From a virus: a DNA stretch of 44,532 nt. The position numbers and the translations under genes are program-made. Numbering within the stretch: position 1 is the first letter of the stretch; the number at the start of each line of letters is the position of its first letter. Below the pieces are notes generated by a model. The model worked only from the letters and a program-made list of their open reading frames with translations, did not search any database and was not told where the DNA came from. Positions 772 through 44,532 of the stretch are shown here, piece by piece. The stretch covers positions 1-44,532 of the IMG/VR virus record IMGVR_UViG_3300035698_014765; one strand, given 5' to 3'.

Positions 772-1474
772 GGACGGTGCGGTCGGTAAATCGATCACCG
801 CCAAGCGAAAGAAAATTAATGGCACTGAGCAAACCATCTGCTCGCTGAGTGTGCAGATGACCGTCAACCGACGCGAGTGGGAGCAACTGGCAGCCTTGCC
901 GACCGACTACTGCGACCACTTTTACAATGAAGAAGGCATGCCTGTGGCGCAGCTGAGTCTGCTGTTCACGAAGCTTGAACTCGAATGCAACGGCAAGATC
1001 ACGCACGGTGGTCTGAACACTGAGGAAGACGATGCCAGGAAGCTGCCATTCCTGCCGCTGAAAAACGCCACTGCCAGTGATTGCCGGTTCATACCCGAGC
1101 CGAATACCGCCGTGTTCATCTGCAAGCTGTCATGGGTTGCTGAGGGCGATGAGGTCGAAGAGGTTTCGGATCTGCTTGGCGCGTTCTGCGATATCGATTT
1201 GAAGTTCACTGTGCCGGCCGAGCAAAAGAACCTTGACCTCGGTGCTGGCGGTGCTGACCGTGAAAAGATCACCGAGGCGCTGGGCGAGCTGCTTGAGGAT
1301 CTGGCTCTGCTGGAAATCAATATTCCAGCTGACCACGCGATCTGGCAGACGATCAGCCCGACTGAGTTGAAACGTGTGCAGACGTTCAACCTGAACTCGA
1401 AGGCCGGTAAGAATGTTCGTATGCCAGCGGTGCTCAAGCCGCTGTTTAAGAGCAAAGAAGGGACGGCTCATTGA
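749..1474 (+). CDS. Hypothetical phage protein, 241 aa
   Basis: The open frame extends further upstream, but ATG at 749 is preceded by an AGGGGA ribosome-binding site around 734, so that start is preferred. The protein is soluble and mildly acidic, with no visible signal peptide or membrane segment. It begins MTVRIRTEDG and ends in a basic patch (KAGKNVRMPAVLKPLFKSK). I do not recognise the family. Its TGA overlaps the ATG of the CsrA-like gene by one base, so the two are likely co-translated. Confidence 0.6.
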   Translation: MTVRIRTEDGAVGKSITAKRKKINGTEQTICSLSVQMTVNRREWEQLAALPTDYCDHFYNEEGMPVAQLSLLFTKLELECNGKITHGGLNTEEDDARKLPFLPLKNATASDCRFIPEPNTAVFICKLSWVAEGDEVEEVSDLLGAFCDIDLKFTVPAEQKNLDLGAGGADREKITEALGELLEDLALLEINIPADHAIWQTISPTELKRVQTFNLNSKAGKNVRMPAVLKPLFKSKEGTAH

Positions 1475-1794
1475 TGCTGATTGTTACGCGCAAGCCCGGC
1501 GAGAAGATTGTCATTGTAGATGGCAAGCGCACGGTCATGGTGACAATAACCAAGTGCAAGTCTCAAAACCTCAAGACAATGGCTGTGGCCGGATTGATGG
1601 TTGATGGCGACATAGAAAAGAAGTCGGTCAATGTGTTTGTCGGCGGGTCTTGGTGGCTGTGGGGCGAGGTTTCCGTGCATGTGCACGGCGTGAGCCGCGG
1701 TCAGGCGCAGATTGGTGTGGAAGCGCCAGCACACATTGCTCTTGATCGCGAAGAGGTTTACTTAAAAAAACAGGAGGCTGCAGGTCATGCCTAA
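1474..1794 (+). CDS. csrA: CsrA/RsmA-like RNA-binding regulator with internal insertion
   Basis: CsrA dimers bind GGA-containing leaders of mRNAs and block or alter translation. This 106-residue protein starts MLIVTRKPGEK, matching the first CsrA strand (MLILTRRxGE), and ends with GQAQIGVEAPAHIALDREE followed by VYLKKQ. That matches the last two strands and helix of CsrA, including the R of HREE and the N-terminal T5/R6 that contact RNA. About 50 residues (roughly 15-63, including a Trp-rich GGSWWLWG) are inserted between these halves; normal CsrA is about 60 residues. ATG at 1474 forms TGATG with the previous stop; an in-frame TTG at 1471 is less likely. The phage may use it to reprogramme host or phage translation. 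Confidence 0.75.
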   Translation: MLIVTRKPGEKIVIVDGKRTVMVTITKCKSQNLKTMAVAGLMVDGDIEKKSVNVFVGGSWWLWGEVSVHVHGVSRGQAQIGVEAPAHIALDREEVYLKKQEAAGHA

Positions 1795-2185
1795 GATCAA
1801 ATCGAAAACGAAAAAGAAAACCCCAAAGCAGCGAGCTGCTGCAGTGCGGAGCATGGCGGCGACGCCCGCTGTCGAGGAAAAGCCTGCGAAGGATCTGCGC
1901 GACCTGAGTGTGGTTGTTCAGGGTGCCGATGCAGGGCTGCTGCTCACTATGCTGCAGCGGCAAAACGATTTGCTCGAGGTCGTTGCAAAGAGCACGGCCA
2001 GGTTGATGCTTATTGCTGATAACGAAAACCGCGTGGCCGGCGAGTCGCGTGCTGTGCCTGATGCGCTTGACCTGCGCCGCGACGTTGTTCGTCTGCTGAC
2101 ACGCAATGCGATGACTGAGACCTTGATTATTGACTCCGACGGATCGGCCGATGAGAACAGCGACAGCAAACCTAATGCCGATTAG
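1787..2185 (+). CDS. Hypothetical protein with lysine-rich N-terminus
   Basis: A 132-residue protein with an excellent AGGAGG ribosome-binding site at about 1772, whose start overlaps the end of the CsrA-like gene. The first 18 residues (MPKIKSKTKKKTPKQRAA) are strongly basic. The body contains a predicted amphipathic helix (LLLTMLQRQNDLLEVVAKST), and the C-terminus is acidic. No family was recognised. The basic tail could bind nucleic acid, in line with other lysine-rich tails in this genome. Confidence 0.55.
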   Translation: MPKIKSKTKKKTPKQRAAAVRSMAATPAVEEKPAKDLRDLSVVVQGADAGLLLTMLQRQNDLLEVVAKSTARLMLIADNENRVAGESRAVPDALDLRRDVVRLLTRNAMTETLIIDSDGSADENSDSKPNAD

Positions 2186-2513
2186 CCCGGAAAACAAAGC
2201 ACGATACCCGGACAACTGGCCAGAGATAGTCGAAGACATACGGCTGCGCTCTGGTGACTGCTGCGAAGGATCGCCTGCTTACCCTGATTGCCGTGCTGCC
2301 AACCGGCAGCCACACCCTGCGACTGGATCCATAGTCGTGCTGACTACTGGCCACCTTGACCACACTCCCGAGCATTGCGACGAAGGCAACCTGCGCCATT
2401 GGTGCCAGCGTTGCCATCTGACCTATGACGCTGAACACCACGCGGAAACCCGCTACATTAATGCGCGGTGCAAGCACACCCTTGAACTGTTTGACGATGA
2501 GGAAAGCCAATGA
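2175..2513 (+). CDS. HNH endonuclease-like protein
   Basis: The phage family with starts of the type MPISPENKARYP is recognised, so ATG at 2175 is chosen; in-frame ATG 2151 and TTG 2130 are alternatives. The 112 residues carry cysteines (CCEGS, DCR) and then the HNH core: VLTTGHLDHTPEHCD (H60, H63), GNLRHWCQRCH (N72, H81) and YDAEHH. Such stand-alone HNH proteins nick or cut DNA and often sit near packaging or replication genes. The gene overlaps the end of the previous one by 11 bases and overlaps the next start. Confidence 0.75.
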   Translation: MPISPENKARYPDNWPEIVEDIRLRSGDCCEGSPAYPDCRAANRQPHPATGSIVVLTTGHLDHTPEHCDEGNLRHWCQRCHLTYDAEHHAETRYINARCKHTLELFDDEESQ

Positions 2514-2779
2514 GCATCAACTTTAATGCACCTGTAAACGAAGAAACCCGCGACCTGCTGCGTGGCGCGTTTGGCAAATCGATTGCGAACGATGGCAAGC
2601 ACTTTCTGTATGACAAGTTGCCGGCGATCAGCGGCCCGCTGATGAAGGAGGTTGCCAGGACTGCTGGCCAGACAGCCGAGCTTGAACTGAACACCGAAGG
2701 CGACGTAAAGAAACTGTCTGATGGTACGCGCTACATGGCAACCACTGAGGGCTGGCAGAAGCTGCCGGCAAAGGCCTGA
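2510..2779 (+). CDS. Hypothetical protein, 89 aa
   Basis: The start overlaps the HNH gene stop as ATGA. It is a small soluble protein beginning MSINFNAPVNEETRD, with a C-terminus (KKLSDGTRYMATTEGWQKLP) that resembles a small beta hairpin. No family was recognised; the coupled position in the early operon is the only contextual clue. Confidence 0.5.
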   Translation: MSINFNAPVNEETRDLLRGAFGKSIANDGKHFLYDKLPAISGPLMKEVARTAGQTAELELNTEGDVKKLSDGTRYMATTEGWQKLPAKA

Positions 2780-2792
2780 TGCCTAGAAAGCC

Positions 2793-3050
2793 GTGCGCTA
2801 CATCGATGATATGTGGCAGAGCTATCGTCGCGTTGTCGTGCCAAAGGACGCAACGCCCGTGCAGCTGATCGAATGCGAACGCGCGTTCAAGGCCGGTGCC
2901 GCCAGCCTGCACATGACCGTTATGCGTGGTCTGACTGCCGGGCCTGATGCCAACGAGCCGGATATTGCTTTCATGGAAGACCTGCAGGTCGAAATCGATG
3001 CCATTGGTACCGGCCTCGATACTGCTCTGCCGCGTCCGACCAAGCGTTGA
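2793..3050 (+). CDS. Small conserved-type phage protein, 85 aa
   Basis: The start is GTG at 2793 (MRYIDDMWQSY), or possibly ATG at 2811. The pattern W-x2-Y-x3-V-x-P-x-A ... Q-x-x-E-x-x-RAF-x-AGA (ECERAFKAGAASL) is common in small proteins of early regions of siphoviruses and is probably all-helical. No biochemical role is known to me. It is followed after 24 bases by a zinc-ribbon gene in the same operon. Confidence 0.5.
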   Translation: MRYIDDMWQSYRRVVVPKDATPVQLIECERAFKAGAASLHMTVMRGLTAGPDANEPDIAFMEDLQVEIDAIGTGLDTALPRPTKR

Positions 3051-3074
3051 TTTACAAAAATTGAGGGCTGAGTG

Positions 3075-3302
3075 ATGGTAGAGAAAGTCACGTACAAGCC
3101 GTGCCGTTGTGGCACACAAATAGTGATCCTGAATACAGAGCGCGGCAAAAAGATCGCCGTGAACTGTGAGCCGGTAGGACCGCATCAACTCAACTTTGAG
3201 CCTGTGTCGCGATTGGAAACGATGTACCGGTATGGGCGGCATCAGCCACACGTTGCTACCTGCACCCGCAAGAGAAACCCGAGTAGAAAACGATACGTTT
3301 GA
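3075..3302 (+). CDS. Small zinc-ribbon-like protein
   Basis: A 75-residue protein with CRCG near the N-terminus and a further Cys after the hairpin (IVILNTERGKKIAVNCEPV). It fits the small phage zinc-ribbon family that presents CxxCG followed by GKxxxVn. A GAGG ribosome-binding site lies about 8 bases before ATG 3075; the in-frame GTG at 3072 is less likely. The C-terminus is rich in Arg/Lys (CTRKRNPSRKRYV), so nucleic-acid contact is plausible. It lies directly upstream of the ParB gene. Confidence 0.5.
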   Translation: MVEKVTYKPCRCGTQIVILNTERGKKIAVNCEPVGPHQLNFEPVSRLETMYRYGRHQPHVATCTRKRNPSRKRYV

Positions 3303-3330
3303 CAATCCACTAACTGAAAAGGATTCCATC

Positions 3331-5151
3331 ATGACCGCACTAAAATCCGGGCAGGTGCATCAACTGCCACCCTCGCAACTATCGCGCGATCCGCTGCAGC
3401 CGCGTGATCCTGAATCGATCAGCAAAGTTGCCCTGAAAGATCTGTCTGTGTCTTTGAAGTCTCACGGCATGCTGCAGCCAATCATTGTCAGGCAACTCGG
3501 CAAGAAGACGATCATCGTCTACGGTGAGCGCCGCTGGCGAGCTGCCAAGCTTGCAAAGATGAAGACCGTCCCGTGTGTTGTTGGCGACAAGAAGGATCTG
3601 CTTGGCCGAGCTGCCGGGCAGATAGCAGAGAACCTCGACCGTGAAGGCCTGAATACTGTGGACGTCGCCGCTTTTCTGCTGCGCCTGCAGAAGCAGGAAA
3701 AGAAAACGGTCAACGAGCTATCTGCTGAACTGGCGAAGCGAGGCCTGCAGAACGTATCGCATAAACGCATTGCGAACCTGCTGGAAATAAACAAGCTGCC
3801 GGCGTGGGCAAAGACGATGTTGCGCAAAGAGCAGATGACTGAAAAGATCGCGACCAGGTTGCTGCCTGCCTTAAAATATCCGAAGGTGCTGGCAGAGCTT
3901 CACGCCGACATGAAACGCGATGTTGAGTGGACCGGCGCTGTCGGCGAGCGTGATCTTGATCGCACCATCAATGGCGCGTATCGATCTGCTGGCCGGGACC
4001 TGAAAAAGGGTTGGGGCGACGATCAGCCCGCGTTCAATGTGGCAACGGTCTGCAAGGGCTGCGAGTTCCGCCAGAAGATTGGCGCGAACGGTGCTTACTG
4101 CATGGCCCCTGCTGACTTCGACAAGCGCAATGCTGCGGCGAAGGTTGCCAAGAAGGAACGCGCTGATCGCAAGGCTGCCAAGGGCAAGACTGCTGGCGGC
4201 ACTGAGACGAAGCTGTCGCCCGCTGAGGGCAAAGCAAAGGCGGCTCGCAAGGTGATGCTGTACGAAGAGAAGATGTCGATCTGGATGGACGGCTGGCTCA
4301 GACCGCGTGTACTGGCCTGTGTCGCCGACCGTGCAACTGGCATGCAAATCTATTCGCTCACCTACTGGCTGGCCACTGGCGCTGTGAAAAAGGCCAATGA
4401 GTGGTCGAGCGGCCAGCTTGGCGCCGAAAGTGGTGAGGGCATCCGTGAACACACGCGAGGGCTGCTGCACCACGCCAAGATCGGCGACTTGCAGGCCTGC
4501 CTCGGATACGCGATGTGCGCTGATCACAAGGCCGAGCGAGACGACGGTATCGCCCGGGCTGCGGTGTCTGTGATGGACGCCGAGCAGTTGCGCTGGTTCG
4601 CCCGCGTGGTGTTGAAGTACGACCTGCTGAAAGAGGGGTTCGCCATCGATATCAAATACCTTGATCTGCACCGAAAGGCCGAGCTTATTGGTCTGGCGAA
4701 GATTGGCGGTGTGGTTCCACGTGGAACAGGTGGTGTTCCCGGTCTGAAACAGTCGATACTTTCCACCACGGATGCCGTTAAGAAAATCGCGGTGCCGAAG
4801 GCCTTGGCGGACCTGTACGGCCGTGACCCTGAGCCGATACCGGACAAGGTATTCAAGCGTTCGTCTCCGACTGCCCATGACCAACTAATTCACGACCTCG
4901 GCCTTGATTCGGGTGCCACGGTTGGTGAAATCGTCCACGCGCTGCACACCGGAACCGAGGCGACTGCTGCCAAGGCTGCCGGCGAAGCGCTGAAGGTTGC
5001 CGATGAGAAAGCTGCTGCCAGGAAAAAGAAAGCTGCGAAGAAAAAGCCTGTGAAAAAACGTGCTGCCAAAAAGAAGGTTGCCAAGAAGAAAGCCCGCAAG
5101 AAGGTTGCCAAGAAAAGCCTGACGCGAAGCCTCGCGATACTGACTGCCTAG
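3331..5151 (+). CDS. parB: ParB-family CTPase/DNA-binding protein with histone-H1-like tail
   Basis: ParB proteins load at parS, bind CTP and spread along DNA for segregation. This 606-residue protein has the full ParB N-domain: GLLQP-like HGMLQPIIVR (residues 45-54), CTP box GERRWRA (65-71) and IAENLDREGLN (98-108), then a KorB/ParB-type HTH (about 126-155). A long middle part has C-x2-C and a further Cys (CKGCEFRQ ... YC). The last about 40 residues are Lys/Ala repeats (KKKAAKKKPVKKRAAKKK) like histone H1. The start ATG 3331 has AAGGA upstream; the frame is open further 5' but overlaps the zinc-ribbon gene. No ParA was found. A parS-like palindrome lies inside the gene at 4713-4728. Confidence 0.8.
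   Translation: MTALKSGQVHQLPPSQLSRDPLQPRDPESISKVALKDLSVSLKSHGMLQPIIVRQLGKKTIIVYGERRWRAAKLAKMKTVPCVVGDKKDLLGRAAGQIAENLDREGLNTVDVAAFLLRLQKQEKKTVNELSAELAKRGLQNVSHKRIANLLEINKLPAWAKTMLRKEQMTEKIATRLLPALKYPKVLAELHADMKRDVEWTGAVGERDLDRTINGAYRSAGRDLKKGWGDDQPAFNVATVCKGCEFRQKIGANGAYCMAPADFDKRNAAAKVAKKERADRKAAKGKTAGGTETKLSPAEGKAKAARKVMLYEEKMSIWMDGWLRPRVLACVADRATGMQIYSLTYWLATGAVKKANEWSSGQLGAESGEGIREHTRGLLHHAKIGDLQACLGYAMCADHKAERDDGIARAAVSVMDAEQLRWFARVVLKYDLLKEGFAIDIKYLDLHRKAELIGLAKIGGVVPRGTGGVPGLKQSILSTTDAVKKIAVPKALADLYGRDPEPIPDKVFKRSSPTAHDQLIHDLGLDSGATVGEIVHALHTGTEATAAKAAGEALKVADEKAAARKKKAAKKKPVKKRAAKKKVAKKKARKKVAKKSLTRSLAILTA
4713..4728. promoter_or_regulatory. parS: parS-like ParB-binding palindrome inside parB
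   Basis: GGTTCCACGTGGAACA is read here. The 14-base core GTTCCACGTGGAAC is a perfect palindrome, and the 16-mer differs from the bacterial chromosomal parS form TGTTCCACGTGGAACA only at its first base. It is translated in frame as part of VVPRGTGG in the ParB homologue. It may be the phage ParB's own loading site or a mimic of host parS. An exact 14-base match is not expected by chance in a window of this size. Confidence 0.75.
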
Positions 5152-5161
5152 TCAGGCCCGG

Positions 5162-5196
5162 GCGCTGGCGTCGGCGATCCTACGCCACGCCAGCGC
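5162..5196 (+). terminator. Strong hairpin after parB
   Basis: GCGCTGGCGT (5162-5171) pairs perfectly with ACGCCAGCGC (5187-5196), and an inner GGCG/CGCC stem closes a loop of about six bases. It begins 11 bases after the parB stop. No U-tract follows (ACCCGG), so it may act as a rho-dependent or processing hairpin rather than a classical terminator. Confidence 0.5.
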
Positions 5197-5285
5197 ACCC
5201 GGTTCAATTGGCCTAGTTTCCCGGCCATCCATCCAAAGTAGTCCACTACAGGCCCGCGCATGGCGTCAGGCCTAGCCAAATTGGT

Positions 5286-5322
5286 GCTTTTTCCGGGTGG
5301 TCTGACTGCCTGATAATAAGGA
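5286..5322 (+). promoter_or_regulatory. Candidate promoter upstream of the 5365 gene
   Basis: GCTTTTTC at 5286 and GCCTGATAATAAGGA at 5308-5322 form a -35/-10-like pair (GATAAT as -10) about 45 bases before the GTG start. A nearly identical arrangement (GCTTTTC ... GCCTGATAATAGGAA) lies upstream of the sliding-clamp fusion gene at 35355-35390. The repetition supports a phage promoter class. The rest of the 5152-5364 gap holds the hairpin above and a small inverted repeat CGGGA/TCCCG (5329-5342) that could be an operator. Confidence 0.45.
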
Positions 5323-5364
5323 CTAGCCCGGGAACTGTCCCGAGGCGCTTACCGGAGAAACACC

Positions 5365-5826
5365 GTGGAAACCATCAAAAAATACTTTGCTGAAAACGAC
5401 GCGCACGAAATTGCTGTGATCACTGTCCTGCTCGACGCCGAGGGAAACTACATTCCCGAATCGCCGACGCTTGGTATGGGTCATAACTACAAGTCCGCCG
5501 ATACTGCTGCCCGTGATCTTGCACGGCGTCACGGATACACGCTGACCGGCTTCGACGCCGACCTGCTGGCGCTGGCTGCTGCCGGAATGGAGCACACTTG
5601 GAACGACATCGCTCCTGACCTTGCTGCCGAACTTGAAGGTAACGACATTGACTGCACCGACATGACTGCTGCCGACCTTTGCGAAATCTGCTCGGATCAT
5701 ATTTACAAGTCGGCCAGCGCGGACGAGTTCGCCGCCTACCAACTGCTGATGGAAGAGGCGAGCGGATTCTTTACGCTGCTGCCGTCGCTTGCTGCGGCGA
5801 TGTCATTCAAACGATACGGAATCTAA
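5365..5826 (+). CDS. Hypothetical acidic protein, 153 aa
   Basis: A GTG start with GGAG about 8 bases upstream; it is the first gene after the candidate promoter. The protein is acidic and soluble, with an N-terminal segment (DAHEIAVITVLLDAEGNYI) likely forming strands and a helical remainder rich in Ala, Asp and Glu. No family was recognised. Its first-gene position suggests a highly transcribed early protein, and an acidic small protein at that position could be a host-protein inhibitor or DNA mimic. That is only inference. Confidence 0.55.
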   Translation: METIKKYFAENDAHEIAVITVLLDAEGNYIPESPTLGMGHNYKSADTAARDLARRHGYTLTGFDADLLALAAAGMEHTWNDIAPDLAAELEGNDIDCTDMTAADLCEICSDHIYKSASADEFAAYQLLMEEASGFFTLLPSLAAAMSFKRYGI

Positions 5827-5836
5827 GGGGACAATT

Positions 5837-6052
5837 ATGGCCTACCGAATACTGACTGAAATTTCTGGCGGCGTGACTGGCAGCCGATCTGCCTACGTCA
5901 AAATAGAGGGCAAGGTGCTTGAATTTGATACTGCTGAAACCGCTGAATACTACGCTGACCAACTGCGCAAGGGGCGATCACCATACTCGCGCTTTGATCA
6001 GACCTGGACTGTTGAACCGATGAGCCCTGAAACTGATGGAGAGCAAAAATGA
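5837..6052 (+). CDS. Hypothetical protein, 71 aa
   Basis: ATG at 5837 follows AAGGGGACAATT, a good ribosome-binding site. The 71 residues (MAYRILTEISGGVTGSRSAY ...) suggest a small alpha/beta protein: ISGGVTGSRSAYVKIEGK forms strands, and AETAEYYADQLRK is a helix. The stop overlaps the RadC start as ATGA. It is not assigned to a family; similar short proteins predicted to bind no cofactor are frequent in phage early operons. Confidence 0.5.
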   Translation: MAYRILTEISGGVTGSRSAYVKIEGKVLEFDTAETAEYYADQLRKGRSPYSRFDQTWTVEPMSPETDGEQK

Positions 6053-23483: not shown

Positions 23484-24320
23484 TTATGGCGAGGATCTGA
23501 ATATGCTCTGTGCGAGCAGTGCCAACTCCTTCGCTGGCGGTGCGTCGGTTGCACATATCGGCAAGTACGGTGCGTCTGGCGCCACCCAAGTACGCGGGAA
23601 GTCTTGATGGTGCGCCGTTGGATACAGTGCAATTGTTGGTGTCCGGAAGTGGTTTGCGAGGATCGTCATGCCCGAAATAACACCGACGACAATGCAGGCT
23701 TTCTGAAGGATATCCGCGACTTCTGGCAGCGTTGTCTTCGCGGTCAGGTCCTCATACTCGACGCCTGCTGCGTTTGCTGTTGCTGCCAGTTTCGCGCTGA
23801 ATGGCGCGTCCCATTGCGCAGCGATCAGCGTGACCGGGCCGACAAGCCTTGTTAGCGTTTCGATCAGGGTCAGCCAATACGTGATGCCACCAAGATTGCT
23901 CATCCATGCCCGATTGATTGCCTCACTGCTGGCGTACACGACTACACGCGGCTCGCCCATTGGCTTTGTTCGCACCTTGAAATCAAGATCCATGTCCAGC
24001 TCTGGCAGCCAGTTTGCCAGTGGCTCGCCGCGATCAACGACTGTGTTCGGCCACATGATGCAGTTGGTTCCGCCCGGACCAGGTTGCGCAAAGCCGCTGT
24101 TGTTGTGCTTGAGCACTACCGATGGGCTGAACGGCAGAAACGATGACGAGTCAACAAAATCCACCATGTCTGACCACAGTGTAGAGCGGCCCGGACCAGC
24201 TCGTTGCACGCACAATTCAACATGATCTACGCCGTGCAGCTCGCGATAGGCCTGCAGCTTTGTCAGGCACCAATAAACGTCACCGACACCGGGCGGCACA
24301 GCGATTGTGTGCTTGTTCAT
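23484..24320 (-). CDS. GT9-like glycosyltransferase (heptosyltransferase fold), second copy
   Basis: The first ATG with support is 24320, which overlaps the upstream stop (ATGA). 278 residues: N-terminal GVGDVYWCLTKLQAYRELHG matches the GDxxW/L-type N-terminal loop of heptosyltransferase-like proteins. The C-terminal Rossmann half has PRVVVYASSEAINRAWMSNL, ACIVVGVISGMTILANHFRT and PTIALYPT, the G(V/L)xSGxTHLAxxFxxPTI pattern of GT9. It would transfer a sugar from a nucleotide donor, target unknown. Last gene of the cassette. Confidence 0.65.
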   Translation of the reverse strand: MNKHTIAVPPGVGDVYWCLTKLQAYRELHGVDHVELCVQRAGPGRSTLWSDMVDFVDSSSFLPFSPSVVLKHNNSGFAQPGPGGTNCIMWPNTVVDRGEPLANWLPELDMDLDFKVRTKPMGEPRVVVYASSEAINRAWMSNLGGITYWLTLIETLTRLVGPVTLIAAQWDAPFSAKLAATANAAGVEYEDLTAKTTLPEVADILQKACIVVGVISGMTILANHFRTPTIALYPTAHHQDFPRTWVAPDAPYLPICATDAPPAKELALLAQSIFRSSP

Positions 24321-25036
24321 GCTTCGTTCCTTATGCGCTTTGCGTACACGACAAGCTTGCCGGGTATTGGCCGCGTGACTTCGATTGGTGTGAGCGCTGC
24401 CATGCCGAGCATGTCTTTCAATGACTGTTCGGTGAAGTACCAAGGGTGCTCTGCCTTGAAGTGGTGGAAGCCGTTTGGCTCTGCGACGTCGGGCACGTCG
24501 ACGACGATCAGTCCGTTTGGATCGAGCAGATGTTTGCCGGCGTGGTCTAGCTCTGCTTGCGGGTCGAGGATGTGTGCAAGCACATCGTGATATGTCACCA
24601 GGCTGCTGCGGATCTTGATCATGCGTGCGCTGCCGGTTAAGACGCGCCCGCCGAACATCGCCGGATCTGGATCGATGCCGATTGCCCGGATACCCTGCTT
24701 TGTCAGGTAGTCGGCGAATGCACCGTTTGAAGCGCCAACATCGAGCGATGAGAACAGGCTGATCTTGTGTGCCTCTGCCACGCGCATGTATTCCGTCCAG
24801 CGTGCCCACGCGACCGATTTATCATGTTTGTAGCGATCTTTGTACGGAATGCAGCCCGGATGCCGGTCTGCTGCAGCATGGTATGCGCCGTAGTACTGGC
24901 CCTCGTAGTCTGCTGCTGACTGATCGCTGTGCAGGCGGATGACGCCGCAATCGCAGACCAGAAACTGCAGGTCATTGCGCTTGAACTTGCTGTTTTCCAG
25001 TGTGACTCCGCAGACGCACTGATCGAGCAGGCTCAT
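24317..25036 (-). CDS. Class I SAM methyltransferase with N-terminal zinc finger
   Basis: ATG 25036 overlaps the upstream stop (ATGA). 239 residues. An N-terminal zinc-ribbon (CVCG ... CDCG) is followed by methyltransferase motif I (SLDVGASNGAFADYLTKQGI), an acidic strand end (AIGIDPDPA), and motifs LVTYHDVLAHILDPQAELDH and LIVVDVPDVAEPNGFHHFKA. This matches Methyltransf_23/13-type enzymes often paired with sugar biosynthesis (C- or O-methylation of sugars). HxH-rich region may bind metal. Acts in cytoplasm, substrate probably a sugar nucleotide or glycan. Confidence 0.7.
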   Translation of the reverse strand: MSLLDQCVCGVTLENSKFKRNDLQFLVCDCGVIRLHSDQSAADYEGQYYGAYHAAADRHPGCIPYKDRYKHDKSVAWARWTEYMRVAEAHKISLFSSLDVGASNGAFADYLTKQGIRAIGIDPDPAMFGGRVLTGSARMIKIRSSLVTYHDVLAHILDPQAELDHAGKHLLDPNGLIVVDVPDVAEPNGFHHFKAEHPWYFTEQSLKDMLGMAALTPIEVTRPIPGKLVVYAKRIRNEA

Positions 25037-34902: not shown

Positions 34903-35263
34903 TGGCGGTCCGTCCCGGTATTCCTTCCAGTGCTGCTGTTAGCGTCGTGAAGATCTCGCTGAGTGCTTCGTGTACCTGGTCGCGCGTTATGAACTCGCCT
35001 GCGCGATGCAGGTTTTGCATTTCGACTCTCGTTGCATTGGCGCGGGCGAGGCGCTGATGCTGCGACGATCCGCTGGCGGTCGTACCCGATTGTTTCAGAA
35101 ACTTTATGTAGCCTTGCACGGAACCGATCAGCGGATACATGCCTCTGTCTTCTGACTTCGGAATAAAACCTTGGCCGGCCAGCTGCTGCAGGCGACGAGT
35201 GGTGATGCCGAGCAAGCTTGCGATTGCTTTTGCTGGCATGTCTCCGACACTAGGACCGGCCAC
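34694..35263 (-). CDS. Terminase small subunit (Nu1-like)
   Basis: 189 residues from GTG 35263 (GGGAG upstream). KAIASLLGITTRRLQQLAGQ then GFIPKSEDRGMYPLIGSVQG is the Nu1-type winged HTH with wing. RLARANATRVEMQNLHRAGE then FITRDQVHEALSEIFTTLTA is the typical helical oligomerisation part. It binds cos and recruits the large subunit. The acidic C-terminal tail is coded in the overlap with the large-subunit gene. Confidence 0.8.
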   Translation of the reverse strand: MAGPSVGDMPAKAIASLLGITTRRLQQLAGQGFIPKSEDRGMYPLIGSVQGYIKFLKQSGTTASGSSQHQRLARANATRVEMQNLHRAGEFITRDQVHEALSEIFTTLTAALEGIPGRTANEYAGITDAAAIRTRQQDELRRVRTALADSLEQFAESSRHFADHGAGSETTEAEDAGSMGEREQDTSTE

Positions 35264-35438
35264 GGTTGCTCCCGTTTTCCCGGGTTTCGCCAGCGCCCGC
35301 CAGAATCAGCCCGCCAGCGACCGGCAAACCCGCGCCCCGTAAGGGATACAGGCTGCTTTTCAGCGATTGCCATTTGCCTGATAATAGGAATGACCGGCTT
35401 CCGTTGTGGGAGCCGGGTATCTCATGGAGAGCAATATC
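35264..35438. promoter_or_regulatory. Divergent region between terminase and clamp fusion
   Basis: Holds three CGCCAG copies (35288, 35298, 35312), which could be iterons or a cos-binding array next to the small terminase. It also holds a candidate plus-strand promoter at 35355-35390 (GCTTTTC and GCCTGATAATAGGAA) matching the one at 5286-5322. The GTG of the small terminase and ATG of the clamp protein face outward from it. ATGGAGAG is the clamp ribosome-binding site. Confidence 0.4.
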
Positions 35439-37007
35439 ATGGCTACAAAGAAACTGAGTGAAGCCCGCAAAGCGGCACTGGGCGTCAAGACCAACAGCGT
35501 GTCTAGCGGTACTGACGATGTGCGCAAGCGACGTGCCAAAAAGCGAGCGGCGAACAAGGCGCTGGTACGCAAACCGAAACCGGCTGCGAAGAAAAAGACG
35601 ACAGCGAAGAAACCTGCTGCGAAGAAGGTTGCTGCGAAGAAACCTGCTGCGAAGAAGGTTGCTGCGAAGAAACCTGCAGCGGCGAAAAAACCTGCGACGC
35701 CTAAAAAGGTCAGCCAGATTGCGGCGAAGAAAAAGCCAGACGTGATCTGCGAAGCTGCATGCGCTGACTGCAAGGCGTCGGCCAGCAAGTCGGATATCGG
35801 AACGACCTGCAGGAGCTGCGGTCGCGGCATCATTGAAAAGCCGAAGGCCCAGGCTGCTGTGAAAAGCAATGTCACGCCAATCCGCAAGGCGGCTGCTGCC
35901 AAGCATCCGAACGACGGTAAGGACTACTCGATTGCTGACGAGGCGAAGATTGCTGGACTTTTCAACAAGGGTGCGAAGACGCCCGAGATTGCGAAGGAAC
36001 TTGGTCGCAGTGTTGAGTCGATCGACAGCTACCTGAACCGGGCCACGATCCCTGCACCGGAAAAGGATAAGCCAAAGGCCGAAGCGATCACCGCTGACGA
36101 GTTGGGCGATGCAGAAGCGATCCAGCTGCCGATGAAGTTTGTTACTGCTGCGCTGTCTGTGACGCCAAAGGATGATGTTCGCTACATGCTGAACGGCGTC
36201 TACATCAAGCAAAGCGCCGACAAGCTGCTGCGCATCGTCGCTACTGACGGGTATCGGTTGTTCGTTTGCAACGTCGTGCTCGAGCAGAAAGTTTCGTGGG
36301 CACAGAAGGGAGTCATTATTCCGCGTGACCACCTTGAACGAGTCGTCAAATACCTCGGTCGAAAGGTTGAGTCGATTGAGATTGAGAGCGGCGAGAACTT
36401 CCAGCATCTGCAGGTCAACGAGATTGACGGGATTGCGACGTTCAAGTTCAAGCCTGTCGACGCAGAGTTCCCTGCCTATCAGACGATCATCGACAGCGCT
36501 GCGCACTTGTTCACCGATGAGCGTGAGGCGATGACGATGACCAGTCTCGACGGAGCGTTCGTGAAGGCTGCTGGCACCGTTGCCGGTACGCTCGGTGCTA
36601 CCGGGGTGCTGCCGTTCCTTTCCAGCGACGGAAAGTCCGCCAGCGTGTTTGCCTTCAACGGAGTGCCCGAGGCCTTGCTTTACATCATGGCGCAAAAGGC
36701 GCGTGACGAAGTGCTGCCCGCTGCTACCACGAGGCTGTTTGGTAAGGCGGCGATGCAGGCCACGCTGACCGAGCTGGATGCGCAGATTAAAAAGACCAAG
36801 ACCAATGCGCGGACTGCGAAGCACAAGAAGTTCAAAGAGCAGTTTGCTGCCAAGGCTGATCGGCTGCAGGTCAGAGCCGACCAACTGCGCGCGGCGCTTT
36901 CCACGAAGCTGGCAGCACCCAAGCCAGAGGCGGACACACCGGCTGATACGAGTACTCCCAAGCCTGACGTAGCTGCCGAAGCTGCTGCAACGCCCTCGGT
37001 CCACTAG
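35439..37007 (+). CDS. Histone-H1-like tail, zinc finger and HTH fused to sliding-clamp domain II
   Basis: 522 residues. About 30-90 are Lys/Ala repeats (AAKKPAAKKVAAKKPAAKK) like histone H1. Cys104, 108, 111, 124 and 127 may form zinc fingers (CEAACADC, CRSCG). About 163-203 is an HTH (DEAKIAGLFNKGAKTPEIAK; ELGRSVESIDSYL). About 228-352 aligns with domain II of the bacterial beta clamp (DVRYMLNGVY, LRIVATDGYRLFVCN, GVIIPRDHLE, DAEFPAYQTII). A shorter domain III-like part follows (ASVFAFNGVPEALLYIMAQ). Domain I is missing. ATG 35439 has GGAGAG upstream; the frame is open further 5'. It may hold a polymerase or repair partner at DNA. Confidence 0.7.
   Translation: MATKKLSEARKAALGVKTNSVSSGTDDVRKRRAKKRAANKALVRKPKPAAKKKTTAKKPAAKKVAAKKPAAKKVAAKKPAAAKKPATPKKVSQIAAKKKPDVICEAACADCKASASKSDIGTTCRSCGRGIIEKPKAQAAVKSNVTPIRKAAAAKHPNDGKDYSIADEAKIAGLFNKGAKTPEIAKELGRSVESIDSYLNRATIPAPEKDKPKAEAITADELGDAEAIQLPMKFVTAALSVTPKDDVRYMLNGVYIKQSADKLLRIVATDGYRLFVCNVVLEQKVSWAQKGVIIPRDHLERVVKYLGRKVESIEIESGENFQHLQVNEIDGIATFKFKPVDAEFPAYQTIIDSAAHLFTDEREAMTMTSLDGAFVKAAGTVAGTLGATGVLPFLSSDGKSASVFAFNGVPEALLYIMAQKARDEVLPAATTRLFGKAAMQATLTELDAQIKKTKTNARTAKHKKFKEQFAAKADRLQVRADQLRAALSTKLAAPKPEADTPADTSTPKPDVAAEAAATPSVH
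35604..35684 (+). repeat. Thirty-base tandem repeat in the H1-like tail
   Basis: A unit starting GCGAAGAAACCTGCTGCG recurs at 35604 and 35634 as identical 30-base copies, followed by a partial third copy at 35664. It encodes AKKPAAKKVA. The exact DNA identity suggests recent slippage or expansion of the tail. Confidence 0.85.
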
Positions 37008-37022
37008 AGCGGCGAGTGATAC

Positions 37023-37055
37023 GGGCCGCGTCTGATCGTAGGCGTGGCCCTTTTT
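37023..37055 (+). terminator. Rho-independent terminator after the clamp fusion gene
   Basis: GGGCCGCGTC (37023-37032) pairs with GGCGTGGCCC (37041-37050), a ten-base stem with two G-U pairs, followed by TTTTT (37051-37055). It lies 16 bases after the stop at 37007. The RarA-like gene begins 71 bases beyond it, so read-through or its own promoter would be needed. Confidence 0.6.
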
Positions 37056-37125
37056 ACGCTGGTAGCGGTCAACAGCGTAGTGATTGAAAATGTGACCACA
37101 CACTTGAAATGGAGAATAAGAAGCG

Positions 37126-37686
37126 ATGATTCCCCCAACTTGTAACAACCTGCCTGCTATGGGCTGCCTGTCGGCAATGCAGAAGTGCATCCGGCGAGGA
37201 TTGGAGCTCGACGCGATGCGCTTTGCTGTAGAGCTGCACATGACCAGCAAGAACTTCGCGACGATGGTCACGAACCGATTGCAGATTGTCAGCCACGAAG
37301 ACATCGATACGATTTCTGCGCCTTGGATCATTCCATACGTACATGCTGCCTGTGAGCAAGCGAAGTTGTGGTACGACCCGAAGAAACTCGGCAAGTCTAG
37401 AATGGCGATAGGCAACTGCATTCGCATCATGTGCCGCGCTCCGAAGGCTCGGCAAGGCGATCACTTCCACGTTGTGGCGGGACTGCAGGCGCTGATCGAG
37501 GGTTACGTTCCCGAGGTTCCTGATTGGGCAAACGATCAGCACACGATTGCTGGCAAGCGCGCTGGTCGTGGTCTCGATTACTTCCGGGCTGAGTCGACGC
37601 GACTGCATCCAGAGCCGCTTGAGCCTGACCCATACGAGGATGAGGCCTACCGGCTTTGGCACTTGAAAGCAGAACGCAAGCTGTAG
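37126..37686 (+). CDS. Stand-alone RarA/MgsA C-terminal-like domain protein
   Basis: 186 residues with ATG 37126 and GGAGA upstream. GCLSAMQKCIRRGLELDAMR then FAVELHMTSKNFATMVTNRL and QIVSHEDID match the C-terminal tetramerisation part of the RarA/MgsA AAA+ ATPase (SAMQKSIRRxDxDAAL ... LxxxAxEDIG). The ATPase itself is absent. RarA acts at stalled forks with SSB. The tail (GKRAGRGLDYFRAESTRLHP) is conserved-looking. Following a clamp-like protein, it suggests a replication-repair pair. Confidence 0.6.
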   Translation: MIPPTCNNLPAMGCLSAMQKCIRRGLELDAMRFAVELHMTSKNFATMVTNRLQIVSHEDIDTISAPWIIPYVHAACEQAKLWYDPKKLGKSRMAIGNCIRIMCRAPKARQGDHFHVVAGLQALIEGYVPEVPDWANDQHTIAGKRAGRGLDYFRAESTRLHPEPLEPDPYEDEAYRLWHLKAERKL

Positions 37687-37699
37687 GCATTGGCTGTGC

Positions 37700-38347
37700 T
37701 TACCTCGCGATCCTAACTCGCGAGTCCTTGATAGCCTGTAGCAGCTGGTCGTCGCATTCGCCGATGGCCAGCTGCAACTTTTCCTGCAGGCCTTGATCCT
37801 CGAATAAGTCCCGATAGTTGAGCACTGGCACATCGAGCCGGGCTGCATCGATGAGCAGTGTTGAGCGCATCTTTGCGTGTGCTACCAGCGCCTTGTCCAT
37901 GAAGTTGCGTTGCTCTGGCTTGATGAAGATGCCGGCATCGGTATAGGCCTGCCATGCGTGTTCGTAGAACGACCAGACTCGTGCGCGGCGTGGCGGAAAG
38001 CTGTCCTGTGCTTCGCGCATAAACACAAAGCATCGAAAGTACTTGTGGAAGGTTGGCAGCTTGGCCGGGCTGAACACTTCCTTTGTGAAGTCGTATTGAT
38101 CGATGCCCCATGTCATTTCGATACATCGGTCGATTGCCTCTGTGCCGGCGCTGATGATGTTGCGATAACAGCCTGCCAGTTCGCAGCCGAACTCGGTTGC
38201 AAGTAACTCGTAGTGAACCGGGTTGCGGATCGGGTTGAAGTACTCCATGCAATAGTTCTTTCTGCTGCTGTGCTGTGCGATTAGCGATGCCAACCAGGTT
38301 GAGCCGCTGTTTGGCAGTGTGATCATCATCAATGGTCGTTTGTCCAT
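37700..38347 (-). CDS. Sulfotransferase-like P-loop protein
   Basis: 215 residues. TLPNSGSTWLASLIAQHSSR (10-29) is the 5'-phosphosulfate-binding loop type of sulfotransferases (PxxGSTW). FVFMREAQDSFPPRRARVWS matches the 3'-phosphate-binding region less well. The rest is helical with LNYRDLFEDQGLQEKL. It could transfer sulfate from PAPS to a glycan or small molecule. Target is unknown. It ends 13 bases from the convergent RarA-like gene. Confidence 0.6.
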   Translation of the reverse strand: MDKRPLMMITLPNSGSTWLASLIAQHSSRKNYCMEYFNPIRNPVHYELLATEFGCELAGCYRNIISAGTEAIDRCIEMTWGIDQYDFTKEVFSPAKLPTFHKYFRCFVFMREAQDSFPPRRARVWSFYEHAWQAYTDAGIFIKPEQRNFMDKALVAHAKMRSTLLIDAARLDVPVLNYRDLFEDQGLQEKLQLAIGECDDQLLQAIKDSRVRIAR

Positions 38348-38349
38348 GT

Positions 38350-38613
38350 CTATCCTCTGAGGCTTGCGAGTGTGCGCGCTCGTTTCTTCTTGCGCTTATA
38401 CCAGTACAGCGGATGCACCGTTGCACCGGCTGGTATTTCATCGACTGGCCAGCGCAGACATTCAAGGTGTTTGCGGTAGCTTTTCTTCTTGTTCTGGCGC
38501 ATGGCCTGTATCAGGTAGGCACTGCCTGCCGGCGTCTTGAGGAAGTCACCGACCTGCAGATCATGCCCGCCATCGTAGTACAGCTTGCAGGGCGTGTAGG
38601 CCTGCCCGCGCAT
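38350..38613 (-). CDS. Small conserved-type phage protein, 87 aa
   Basis: 87 residues: YYDGGHDLQVGDFLKTPAGS then AYLIQAMRQNKKKSYRKHLE, CLRWPVDEIPAGATVHPLYW and a basic tail YKRKKKRARTLASL. The GDxxxTxxGSAYL ... LRWPxxEIP ... WYKR pattern is found in many siphovirus genomes, often close to ParB/Srx or packaging genes; its function is unknown. The start overlaps the glycosyltransferase stop. Confidence 0.55.
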   Translation of the reverse strand: MRGQAYTPCKLYYDGGHDLQVGDFLKTPAGSAYLIQAMRQNKKKSYRKHLECLRWPVDEIPAGATVHPLYWYKRKKKRARTLASLRG

Positions 38614-39389
38614 TACTTTTGCGCTGTCTTGTTTGTGCGCGATACCGCGATGCGAACCGCTGACGAGCTGCGTTCTTTCTGGAATGCCAGCTTGTTAAAG
38701 CTGACGTGCTTGCCCCACTTGTTGATGATCTTCTGCGATGAGCGTTTGAATATCTCGGGAGTCACCTGACCGACGTTGCCGCCTCGACCGGCGAACACTC
38801 TGCCGCAATCGAAGTAGAAACGAATGTCTGCAAAGACCGCCCTGTCTTCGAGCAGTGTGCGCAGCGCCCAATCAACATGTGCACGACCGAGCATGGTCGT
38901 GTCGTAGTGGCGGTGCCTGGCATTGCCCATGAGTCCGAAGGCGTTGCACACCGATTGCGTCGGCACGATTGGCCGTGTGTCCGGATGGATGATCGTGGTG
39001 TTCGGTGTTCGTGACCAACAGAAAGTAGTCATGCCCAAATCGCGTGTGCAGATCATCGCGTTTTCGATGATGGCCAGAATCTCTTCACTGTCGATGATGA
39101 AACGCTTGCGGCCGGTGTTCGATTGCACACCTTGAAAATCATCGTCAACTTCTACAAAGACCTCTGAGTCGATGTTGTCCATCATCCAGTTCATGACGTT
39201 TGGAAGTCCGTCCATTGCTGGATGCACAAGCAGCTTGTCGTGATCGACGAATGGTGCGTAGTCGTCTACCTCGCGTTCGTCAATACAGATGAGTGCCGTT
39301 GGCAAGAGCCAGCGTATCGTTTCCATGTTGTGCGATCGCTTGCGTGAAGGGACTACGATTCGGTAATCAGGAATTGCCATCGTCTTCAT
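38613..39389 (-). CDS. GT-A glycosyltransferase resembling TET/JBP-associated TAGT
   Basis: 258 residues. YRIVVPSRKRSHNMETIRWL is the P-S-x-x-R start of the TAGT/GREB1-like glycosyltransferases. ALICIDEREVDDY and NWMMDNIDSEVFVEVDDDFQ give the DxD-like metal site (VDDD), and later CWSRTPNTTIIHPDTRP and HYDTTMLGRAHVDWALRTLL resemble the acceptor region. In phages this family is proposed to glycosylate oxidised or hydroxymethylated bases. No TET/JBP or hydroxymethylase gene is in the window. ATG 39389 or 39380. Confidence 0.55.
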   Translation of the reverse strand: MKTMAIPDYRIVVPSRKRSHNMETIRWLLPTALICIDEREVDDYAPFVDHDKLLVHPAMDGLPNVMNWMMDNIDSEVFVEVDDDFQGVQSNTGRKRFIIDSEEILAIIENAMICTRDLGMTTFCWSRTPNTTIIHPDTRPIVPTQSVCNAFGLMGNARHRHYDTTMLGRAHVDWALRTLLEDRAVFADIRFYFDCGRVFAGRGGNVGQVTPEIFKRSSQKIINKWGKHVSFNKLAFQKERSSSAVRIAVSRTNKTAQK

Positions 39390-39570
39390 CCTTGAAAAAC
39401 TCGCTGTAGTACCAGCTGACCTCTGGCGTGCCGTTGCTGTAAAAGATCGGGCTGCATGGCGGGAACGGTTTTGTTCTGGTGTGCGCCAGCTGCTCTGGAG
39501 TCTTTGTCATGATGCTGTCGCGCTGCACGTCTGCTGCGCCTGCAGTTAGTGGATGCTTACGAATTGCCAT
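39367..39570 (-). CDS. Hypothetical protein, 67 aa
   Basis: ATG 39570, 67 residues ending DEDDGNS. SPIFYSNGTPEVSWYYSEFF is the only conspicuous stretch. It overlaps the ParB/Srx gene end by 14 bases and the glycosyltransferase start by 23 bases, so a coupled operon is likely. No family was recognised. Confidence 0.45.
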   Translation of the reverse strand: MAIRKHPLTAGAADVQRDSIMTKTPEQLAHTRTKPFPPCSPIFYSNGTPEVSWYYSEFFKDEDDGNS

Positions 39571-40285
39571 GTAACTTCTCCAGAACGCGTGTTGCTCGAA
39601 TGGCTCTGGCCGTGCCCATGCGCCCGCGTCTTTTCTCCGGCTTGAGCTCAAGGCGTTCGCAAAGAACGTTGAATTCGTGCGAGGTCTGACAGGCAACGAC
39701 GATGTAGTCGTAGTGTTCGTGTGGTTCGAGTGCCATGCCCTCGACAACTTTCTTCTGTGAGGCCTTGGTCTCCATGCTCTGCGCGAGTTCGCTGTCGACG
39801 TCGGCGAAGAGTCTGCGCATGAATGCGTCTTCATCGTCTGGATCCGATGCTTGCTCGAGTAAAACCTTCAGTGCCTCCGCATCCATGATCGCGAGTTCTG
39901 CGAGTGGATCGTATGTTGCCAGGAAGATCGCTGCTTCCTTGTCGTTGAGGTCGGTGATCAGCACCGGGATCAGATCATCGCCGACAATATCTTGTCGCAG
40001 GTGTCCGTCGAGAATTTCCACGCCTGCTTTCGTGTCGCGACCGATGAGAGCGCCAGCGATACCGATGCGCTCCATGATTGACGTGACTGCGGCCTCTTGC
40101 TCGTCGGGATGCAGTCGCCAGTTGAGCGGATTCTTTAGAAGATCGCTGGCCTTGATGCGGCGCAATTCGAGTATGCGATCGCGAAATCTTTGCGGCGGCG
40201 CACGCTTCTTGGCAGCTGGTTTCTTGCGACCAGGTTGCTTGCGCTTAGTCGGTGCTTTCTTCGTTGCTGTTTTCTTGCGTGACAT
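39557..40285 (-). CDS. ParB/Srx-fold protein with lysine-rich N-terminal tail
   Basis: 242 residues from ATG 40285. The first 33 (MSRKKTATKKAPTKRKQPGR) are histone-tail-like. Then RIKASDLLKNPLNWRLHPDE, a helix, VEILDGHLRQDIVGDDLIPV and LITDLNDKEAAIFLATYDPL AELA form the ParB/Srx domain of phage proteins, with the conserved DGHLR. No HTH follows. Such domains are variously nucleases or nucleotide-modifying enzymes. It neighbours the DNA-glycosyltransferase candidate. The upstream frame continues, but the small gene ends inside it. Confidence 0.65.
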   Translation of the reverse strand: MSRKKTATKKAPTKRKQPGRKKPAAKKRAPPQRFRDRILELRRIKASDLLKNPLNWRLHPDEQEAAVTSIMERIGIAGALIGRDTKAGVEILDGHLRQDIVGDDLIPVLITDLNDKEAAIFLATYDPLAELAIMDAEALKVLLEQASDPDDEDAFMRRLFADVDSELAQSMETKASQKKVVEGMALEPHEHYDYIVVACQTSHEFNVLCERLELKPEKRRGRMGTARAIRATRVLEKLHGNS

Positions 40286-40433
40286 TGGTCCCTGCCTTCC
40301 GAGTGATGTCGGTGGTTGCTGTGCTTGGTGATCGCTGCGCACTGTCGAAAAGTTCTGCCTCGAGTGAATGTTCTGGCGTGTGCGGCATGGCTGTGCTGTC
40401 GCTGTTCTGCGCTGCGTGTGGTTGCTGCTTCAT
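40245..40433 (-). CDS. Small Ser/Thr-rich hypothetical protein, 62 aa
   Basis: ATG 40433, 62 residues (MKQQPHAAQNSDSTAMPHTP ... NEESTD), acidic and Ser/Thr rich, overlapping the ParB/Srx gene start by 41 bases. The open frame runs further upstream to 40589, but that part lacks coding character. Translation is plausible but the ribosome-binding site is weak. Confidence 0.35.
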   Translation of the reverse strand: MKQQPHAAQNSDSTAMPHTPEHSLEAELFDSAQRSPSTATTDITRKAGTNVTQENSNEESTD

Positions 40434-43283: not shown

Positions 43284-44294
43284 CTAGCACTGTCCGACGC
43301 TTAGTTCCGCCCTGCCGTTTCTGATGTAGCCATGCCAGTTGCAACCCTTGCCGGTGAGAAGCACCGAGTCTGTGCCAATCTCACCTTGCAGGGATAGCGT
43401 GCTGAAATCAGGCGTTGTCCAGCGCCAGCGGCCCGGTGATGGTGGGACGCCATCGGTTATGCCGCGATCTTTGGACCAGCAGATCACGATGTGTGTGCCG
43501 ACGTTTGAATTGTTGTTAGCAACAAAGCAAAGCGGGCAAAGGAACTGGATCCCCTGCGCCTCTGTTTCCGGGCATGTGACGTGGTATGCGTGGCCGTCTT
43601 CAACTTCGTGGCGCAGCCATCTTGGTTCAAGGTCTGTGAGAGCGATGCTTTGTGTCATTGCCTGTGCTTCCTCGTAGGTGGTTCTGATTGTGTTAAGCAG
43701 ATCCTCTGGCAGCTTCTTTCCCTGACCTGGCTTGCCGTCGCTGGCGCCGATGTGATCGAGGCGCAGCTCGGTGAGCGAGCAGACCTCTTCAATCTCTGCC
43801 AAGCGCTGCTTTGTCTGCTGAACGCTGGTCGTGTATGCGGCTCGCTCGATAGCATCGTGGCGGCAATCGAATCCCAAGAATTCTGCGATCATGCGCACCT
43901 TGCCGGCGTGATTGTGCCAGTGGAACTCATAGTCCACCTGCAGGACCTCTGGGCGTGATCGATACCAATCGTCGAATGCTGCGCGCTGCTGCAAGGTTGT
44001 TTGCAGGACCTCAAAATCCTGATCGCGTCTGCGCCAGATGCTGGCCGCTGCGTCGTACAGGTTGCGATCGCAGTAGATGATTTTCAGTGGTTGGCCCAGG
44101 TTGCTGTCCAGAAGCGCGTTGTGCGTCTTGATTAGCGTGTTGTAGTTGCCGTGAAGCAGGTTGTCTTGCTCGATACGCACCGCTGATGCGCCTTGCGAGT
44201 GAAGGTAAATGTCGAACTCATCGAACAAGGCCTGCACGATGTTGTAGGCGTTGGTCGGGCCGCAGCCATAGCCGCCAACAACAATGATTTTCAT
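43284..44294 (-). CDS. Sulfotransferase-like domain fused to a zinc-like GCxWHG domain
   Basis: 336 residues from ATG 44294, which overlaps the VRR-NUC stop (ATGA); the frame opens further upstream to 44318. MKIIVVGGYGCGPTNAYNIV is a P-loop-like start. YCDRNLYDAAASIWRRRDQD and YRSRPEVLQVDYEFHWHNHA are sulfotransferase-like. The C-terminal half has HVTCPETEAQGIQFLCPLCF, THIVICWSKDRGI, PPSPGRWRW and a GCNWHGYI motif, as in a small zinc-binding domain of phage proteins. Fusion and target are unassigned. Confidence 0.5.
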   Translation of the reverse strand: MKIIVVGGYGCGPTNAYNIVQALFDEFDIYLHSQGASAVRIEQDNLLHGNYNTLIKTHNALLDSNLGQPLKIIYCDRNLYDAAASIWRRRDQDFEVLQTTLQQRAAFDDWYRSRPEVLQVDYEFHWHNHAGKVRMIAEFLGFDCRHDAIERAAYTTSVQQTKQRLAEIEEVCSLTELRLDHIGASDGKPGQGKKLPEDLLNTIRTTYEEAQAMTQSIALTDLEPRWLRHEVEDGHAYHVTCPETEAQGIQFLCPLCFVANNNSNVGTHIVICWSKDRGITDGVPPSPGRWRWTTPDFSTLSLQGEIGTDSVLLTGKGCNWHGYIRNGRAELSVGQC

Positions 44295-44532
44295 GTCATG
44301 CGGACCCGGTTGATCCACTCGCCGGGATAGGCGTGCTGTTCGAAGTACTCTTGCGTGCGTTTGATCATTTCGTCTGCGCCTCTGCAGATGTGCGCCTGAT
44401 AGCCGAACTCAATGTAGTCTGGCAGCCAAGACTTTTGCGCGTCGCTGGTCTTGCTGCCGCGAATGCGCTTTGCCTCAAGATACAGCCCGCCGACTGTTTG
44501 GAATGGTGCGAGGATAACGTAGTCGAAGAAAC
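44291..44532 (-). CDS. C-terminal end of a VRR-NUC nuclease (partial)
   Basis: The frame is open from the right edge to TGA 44291-44293 and gives 79 residues. GGLYLEAKRIRGSKTSDAQK then SWLPDYIEFGYQAHICRGAD and EMIKRTQEYFEQ match the VRR-NUC fold (GxxxEhKxxxGxxSxxQxxWhxxhxxxGYxxxxCxgxxEa). Such proteins are Holliday-junction or flap nucleases in phages. The N-terminus lies outside the window. Confidence 0.75.
   Translation of the reverse strand, partial: FFDYVILAPFQTVGGLYLEAKRIRGSKTSDAQKSWLPDYIEFGYQAHICRGADEMIKRTQEYFEQHAYPGEWINRVRMT

Follow-up and report, generated by a model that had tools for sequence, protein, structure and literature searches.

A phage protein with one and a half sliding-clamp domains, a basic tail and a helix-turn-helix, read tentatively as a ring-less docking platform tethered to DNA

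Bacterial-type sliding clamps, as described, work as closed rings and depend on a loader. A gene in the viral record IMGVR_UViG_3300035698_014765 (44,532 nucleotides; the whole stretch analysed, hereafter the window) raises the question of what a clamp protein may do when the parts that close the ring are gone and parts of a DNA-binding kind are present. The initial annotation proposed a DNA-anchored clamp or a clamp mimic that recruits host polymerase, and these two are still the best pair of hypotheses. The 522-aa protein is built, in this order, of a Lys/Ala tail, a Cys cluster, a helix-turn-helix (HTH), a clamp part at about residues 223-422 and a helical C-terminus. The features of the locus, all on the plus strand, are as follows.

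35357..35385, plus strand: candidate sigma-70-like promoter of the clamp gene (TTTTCA-17-GATAAT, 9/12)
35439..37007, plus strand: tailed clamp gene P0001, 522 aa, with an uninterrupted frame from the ATG at 35439 to the stop at 37007
35439..35747, plus strand: Lys/Ala-rich basic tail, residues 1-103, by composition
35748..35819, plus strand: Cys cluster C104-x3-C108-x2-C111-x12-C124-x2-C127, a putative single zinc site
35931..36044, plus strand: predicted three-helix HTH, residues 165-202, from weak HMM matches and the AlphaFold model
36105..36497, plus strand: complete clamp domain II, residues 223-353, as assigned by PF02767, profile, AlphaFold model and structural match
36522..36704, plus strand: second half of clamp domain III (IIIb), residues 362-422, as assigned by profile, model and structural match
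36720..36899, plus strand: predicted C-terminal helical hairpin, residues 428-487, from the model and common to contigs L006, L008-L012 and L117
37023..37050, plus strand: intrinsic-terminator-like hairpin just 3' of the clamp stop (12 pairs, TTTTT)
37126..37686, plus strand: neighbour gene, 186 aa, a stand-alone MgsA/RarA C-terminal (collar) domain by sequence matches

A ggagag stands ~8 nt 5' of the ATG, and the promoter candidate, weak in that about one such match is expected by chance in the region, lies at a position that suits the clamp gene. A similar terminator-like hairpin follows the stop of the clamp gene in L006, the nearest relative, and its occurrence in the two phages suggests that the gene is a transcription unit of its own. 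Between the two clamp cores there are 78, 63 and 112 differences at codon positions 1, 2 and 3, which fit the pattern of a protein under purifying selection. A long antisense ORF (35250-37430) was read as a shadow ORF of the clamp gene, which is GC-rich.

The clamp domain II recognised in the initial annotation is borne out by PF02767 (beta clamp central domain), which matched at 1.2e-13, above the curated cut-off, and phrog_3007 matched residues 228-417 over profile positions 3-182 of 190 (E 2.2e-20). Domain I is indeed missing, as the annotation had held: PF00712 gave no match in the protein or elsewhere in its record, and in none of 18 records tested was domain I of a full clamp encoded elsewhere in the record. 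PF02768 (domain III) did not match the window protein and was not among the families listed for the 59 aligned members of the family, and the TIGR00663 (DnaN) score of 56.8 is far under the cut-off of 137.65. A profile built from the window protein together with 58 relatives from phages found beta clamps among PDB sequences at 8e-35, aligning in two main blocks, one on domain II (Pseudomonas DnaN 162-269) and the other on the terminal portion of domain III (335-382, with the MPMR motif), the latter weak by itself (i-Evalue 0.15); DnaN residues 270-334 have no counterpart in this alignment. In the AlphaFold (AF2) model the clamp region is mostly above pLDDT 90, and the second-look alignment gave a beta clamp as the best structural match (Z 17.5 over 185 residues, at 2.9 A), with residues 131-377 of a 377-residue clamp chain covered.

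These sequence and model comparisons support a clamp part made of domain II and the second half of domain III, i.e. one and a half domains. The annotation had set the clamp at residues 228-352 as domain II; that stretch is clamp-like by profile and by structural comparison with DnaN, but the clamp extends to ~422 and includes half of domain III. A MAFFT alignment had placed the last domain partly on DnaN IIIa, an assignment that was rejected because the profile alignment and the structurally aligned C-termini favour IIIb. The MPMR motif decides the matter; IIIb of the window protein ends in IMAQK where relatives have VMPMR.

What was lost and what was kept can be set against residues known from E. 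coli beta. The dimer-interface residues I78, F106, I272 and L273 (PMC11139829) all fall within the lost domain I or the missing half of domain III. The residues of the peptide pocket, namely subsite I (R152, L155, T172, G174, H175, R176, L177, P242, R246, V247, V360 and M362) and subsite II (H175, N320, Y323, V344, M362, P363, M364 and R365) (PMC11139829), all lie within the clamp parts kept by the family. Mean family conservation is 0.82 at the 16 mappable pocket positions vs 0.41 at the other 174. Since the search patterns covered two pocket motifs, the comparison was repeated without those positions and gave 0.77 vs 0.39 (p = 7e-6). DnaN proteins conserve the pocket too, and the conservation in the family thus reflects retention rather than a new function. 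Because the lost segments hold both dimer-interface faces and the pocket is the most conserved part, a member of this family is probably a ring-less docking module, as far as sequence and models can tell.

The window protein itself is a drifted example. Its domain II carries R248, L251, T269, G271, Y272, R273, L274 and P345 at subsite I, and five pocket positions deviate (H175 to Y272, R246 to T349, P363 to A418, M364 to Q419 and R365 to K420); the C-terminal motif of L006 is also altered (IMGQ). The change of H to Y and of MPMR to MAQK weakens any claim of canonical binding. Binding of the canonical motif may, judging by these residues, be weak or changed, and the partner of the window protein may not be a user of the canonical clamp-binding motif.

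The clamp family is widespread among phages and poorly described. Single-sequence searches of viral contigs returned nothing for the whole window protein, and for the L006 protein only L006 itself and L007, so that an alignment-based search was needed; in IMG/VR this gave 299 relatives, 80 of which were fetched, most of them 170-230 aa long. With the Bcep781 protein as query, tblastn matched 224 phage records. PF02767 is present in 59/59 aligned members and PF00712, weakly, in 2/59; absence of domain I is common to the compact clamps of phrog_3007. Like the window protein, these compact clamps (Bcep781 gp15, EP23 p08 and the Acinetobacter phage 4316 clamp) consist of domain II and an MPMR-ended half of domain III, whereas at ~170-230 aa they are without its tail, Cys cluster, HTH and C-terminal hairpin. 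DnaN (TIGR00663; PF00712, PF02767, PF02768) shares fold and sequence in domain II and the end of III, and most pocket positions; unlike the window protein, it has domain I and the first half of domain III, and hence the known dimer interface. Full-length phage clamps (phrog_947; e.g. L044, L127 and L132 with 374-396 aa, and Rhizobium phage 16-3 p081 with 378 aa) have a homologous domain II but carry a domain I stretch N-terminal to it.

The family stands in databases under inconsistent names, and Bcep781 gp15, EP23 p08 and the Acinetobacter phage 4316 clamp are labelled either 'RusA-like Holliday junction resolvase' or 'DNA polymerase III beta subunit'. No RusA domain (Pfam) was matched in the window protein or appears among the families listed for the 59 members, and judging from these searches the PHROG label 'RusA-like Holliday junction resolvase' on phrog_3007 is probably wrong. 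That label is now found in many GenBank phage records, e.g. NC_016566.1 and NC_004333.2. The annotation had allowed for the clamp part belonging to a longer, well-described family, which holds only in part: a family does exist in phrog_3007, but under a name that is probably wrong. No account of its domain structure or function was found in the open-access literature searched, and priority is not established.

A smaller set of tailed proteins (the window, L006/L007, L008-L012 and L117) has the C-terminal hairpin in common and low-complexity N-termini that are very diverse among members. Those of the window, L006, L009 and L011 are basic, L008 and L012 have acidic ones, and that of L010 is short and neutral. 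Searching genome contigs with this subfamily gave no relative and hence no link to a host or prophage, a near-identity plasmid search returned nothing, and PADLOC gave no defence-system match.

The N-terminal part sets the window protein apart. Among its first 102 residues are 30 K, 6 R, 25 A and 4 D/E (net +32), so the description of a Lys/Ala tail in place of domain I was right; the DNA beneath is a 15/30-bp tandem repeat at 35604-35681. The tail is not the only one of its kind in this phage, as a ParB-like protein (39557-40342, minus strand) has a Lys/Ala-rich N-terminal tail of its own (SRKKTATKKAPTKRKQPGRKKPAAKKRAPP). The early region encodes, on the plus strand, a 651-aa ParB-N protein (3196-5151; PF02195 4e-20) and a CsrA-like regulator (1471-1794; phrog_9500 6e-16). 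The Cys cluster does exist, but the 'zinc fingers' named earlier reduce to at most one putative zinc-ribbon-like Cys4-5 site formed by Cys 104, 108, 111, 124 and 127, modelled at pLDDT 56-74 and without a confident family match. The HTH is supported by weak HMM matches at ~165-202 (Sigma70_r4_2 1e-3, HTH_23 0.0098, phrog_323 4.6e-4) and by three helices modelled at pLDDT >90 over most of their length. When the Cys/HTH part was compared by tblastn with phage records nothing convincing emerged (best E 0.4), and among the relatives examined it occurs only in the window phage; at this locus the K-rich tail of L006 is shorter, and Cys cluster and HTH are both lacking. The claim that the overall composition was undescribed thus appears to apply to the Cys/HTH part, while the lack of domain I is a family trait, and the search of other phages for the same architecture yielded compact and tailed clamps but no second Cys/HTH N-terminus.

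The surroundings of the gene offer further clues. L006 is syntenic with the window: minus-strand TerL and TerS are followed by two plus-strand genes, the clamp and a second one, beyond which the genes return to the minus strand. In Bcep781, EP23 and SE1 the compact clamp lies antisense within the head genes, while in BcepC6B and Acinetobacter phage 4316 it comes after the DNA polymerase gene. Four sister phages (L094, L095, L096 and L098) have other plus-strand genes, at ~600-5900 of their own contigs, at the site where the window has its clamp; these are by eye amidoligase-like and gamma-glutamylcyclotransferase-like, and from this gene content the site next to the terminase appears to be a cargo spot in the sister phages. 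Among the structural genes of the window stand minus-strand genes that are glycosyltransferase-like and sulfotransferase-like (38613-39389, 23484-24809, 43284-44318 and 37700-38347), recognised by phrog_842 (3e-8), PF01075 (6e-9) and PF00685 (3e-7), with 37700-38347 assigned only by eye.

The second gene of the pair matches MgsA_C (PF12002) in 6/8 relatives, with a best value of 2.6e-5, but the window copy gives no PF12002 match. PDB 2r9g is matched at 5e-7 by the window copy and 6e-8 by a profile. Only the C-terminal region is covered (8g28 244-376 of 426) and the AAA+ ATPase domain is absent. The model of this protein is poor (pLDDT 57) and a fold search gave nothing usable, which is no argument against the sequence match. 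Two adjacent genes that both encode cut-down proteins of replisome type are striking but may be a coincidence. The neighbour gene is 58-64% conserved in sister phages; eight or more related viral contigs carry it, most of them with no clamp match in its vicinity. A single functional unit of clamp and RarA collar was therefore rejected: six sister contigs keep the RarA-like gene without an adjacent clamp match in the stretch covered, and the pairing is not obligate.

Replication genes differ between the two kinds of clamp-bearing phage. A family A polymerase is encoded in 17/22 compact-clamp records vs 0/6 tailed records (Fisher p = 0.001), counts in which the records are not independent, contigs may be incomplete and clamp-free phages stand outside, so that 17/22 has no baseline. 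The seventh tailed record (L117, 115 kb) likewise has no family A polymerase, nor do the six sister contigs without a clamp match. Pol III alpha was found in none of the 28 records, Pol B in none of those among them that lack Pol A, and DnaB in none of the tailed group. A clamp-binding motif in the phage polymerases, considered as proof of a phage partner, was not enriched (3/16 vs 2.4 expected).

The best reading of these data, to which we give slightly less than an even chance, is a non-ring docking platform tethered to DNA, probably for host replisome proteins. The parts kept, domain II and the abutting half of domain III, are those that build the pocket for partner peptides in bacterial beta clamps. 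A protein without the dimer-interface segments would be incapable of canonical ring closure and would not need a clamp loader; the basic tail and the HTH would instead hold the clamp module on phage DNA. So held, the module could offer a docking surface to replisome or repair proteins. Since no polymerase was detected in the window record or its tailed relatives, the docking partners would most likely be those of the host. The compact relatives probably play the corresponding part for the family A polymerases often encoded by their phages. Against a general tether speaks that the basic tail is not universal, the N-termini of L008, L012 and L010 being acidic or neutral. The drifted pocket of the window protein and the lack of motif enrichment in the phage polymerases also count against the platform reading.

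The main rival, less probable in our judgement, is a decoy whose ring-less pocket soaks up host proteins with clamp-binding motifs (clamp-loader delta, Pol III alpha, repair polymerases), so that replication of the host is stopped or redirected; the stand-alone collar encoded next to it could act in the same way as a poison of host RarA. A retained pocket without ring surfaces is what such a protein would have, and the affinity of monomeric beta for delta is ~50 times that of the dimer (PMC11139829). The setting would also suit an independently transcribed takeover gene, as in Bcep781, EP23, SE1 and the window the gene is solitary or has a single companion and runs antisense to the late genes around it, and the tailed phages are without a detected polymerase; this location and lack of polymerase are, however, compatible with a docking platform and a decoy alike. 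A soluble decoy needs no DNA-binding tail or HTH, elements that argue for action on DNA. Many compact relatives belong to phages with a family A polymerase, some adjoining the polymerase gene, which suggests a role in replication, and both the drifted pocket of the window protein and the retention of the RarA-like gene without a clamp speak against the decoy.

Other explanations were judged less probable still. The DNA-bound clamp domain could contact RNA polymerase or a phage factor as a transcription co-activator, in the manner of the T4 clamp gp45, which acts in late transcription (PMC9690074) and sets a precedent; an HTH and a Cys cluster are typical of transcription factors. Yet this part was found only in the window phage, being absent from L006 at the same locus, and nothing ties the gene to late promoters, which makes the idea improbable. 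We give the same low standing to a ring still formed by oligomerised subunits of one and a half domains. Four copies of three half-domains would add up to twelve, the number in a normal clamp ring, and the C-terminal helices could provide new contacts, but the canonical dimer residues are missing and the compact members are without the C-terminal hairpin; to judge by where the interface residues are known to lie, closing the ring would call for a half-domain contact of a type not used by clamps. Hardly credible is a decaying remnant of a full clamp gene acquired from a host. The drifted pocket and the unstable, repeat-rich N-terminus of the window protein would suit decay, but the frame is open, synteny and an excess of third-codon-position differences are seen against L006, and the same two-part architecture recurs across a large and diverse phage family.

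The docking platform held on DNA can be likened to a known eukaryotic-virus system. In herpesviruses, UL42 is kept on DNA by charge rather than by topology. UL42 and UL44 are clamp-fold proteins that do not encircle DNA and are held by charge, a comparison of working only, with no homology claimed; UL42 has the fold of a PCNA subunit and binds DNA by its own basic face, whereas an added tail and HTH are proposed for the window protein. In its widest form the proposal is that phages have repeatedly made a non-ring clamp of bacterial type, and that here the basic tail, Cys cluster and HTH tie the socket to DNA, bringing in host replication proteins without topological loading; we regard this as possible but doubtful. 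If true, a loader-free clamp tied to DNA would be the bacterial-clamp counterpart of herpesvirus UL42. The retention of the socket and the loss of both ring-closing faces across a large phage family would mean that docking is separable from the ring, a claim that can be tested. Members of the family occur in cultivated coliphages, e.g. Bas77-81 as well as relatives of EP23, and the question of docking versus ring can thus be settled at the bench.
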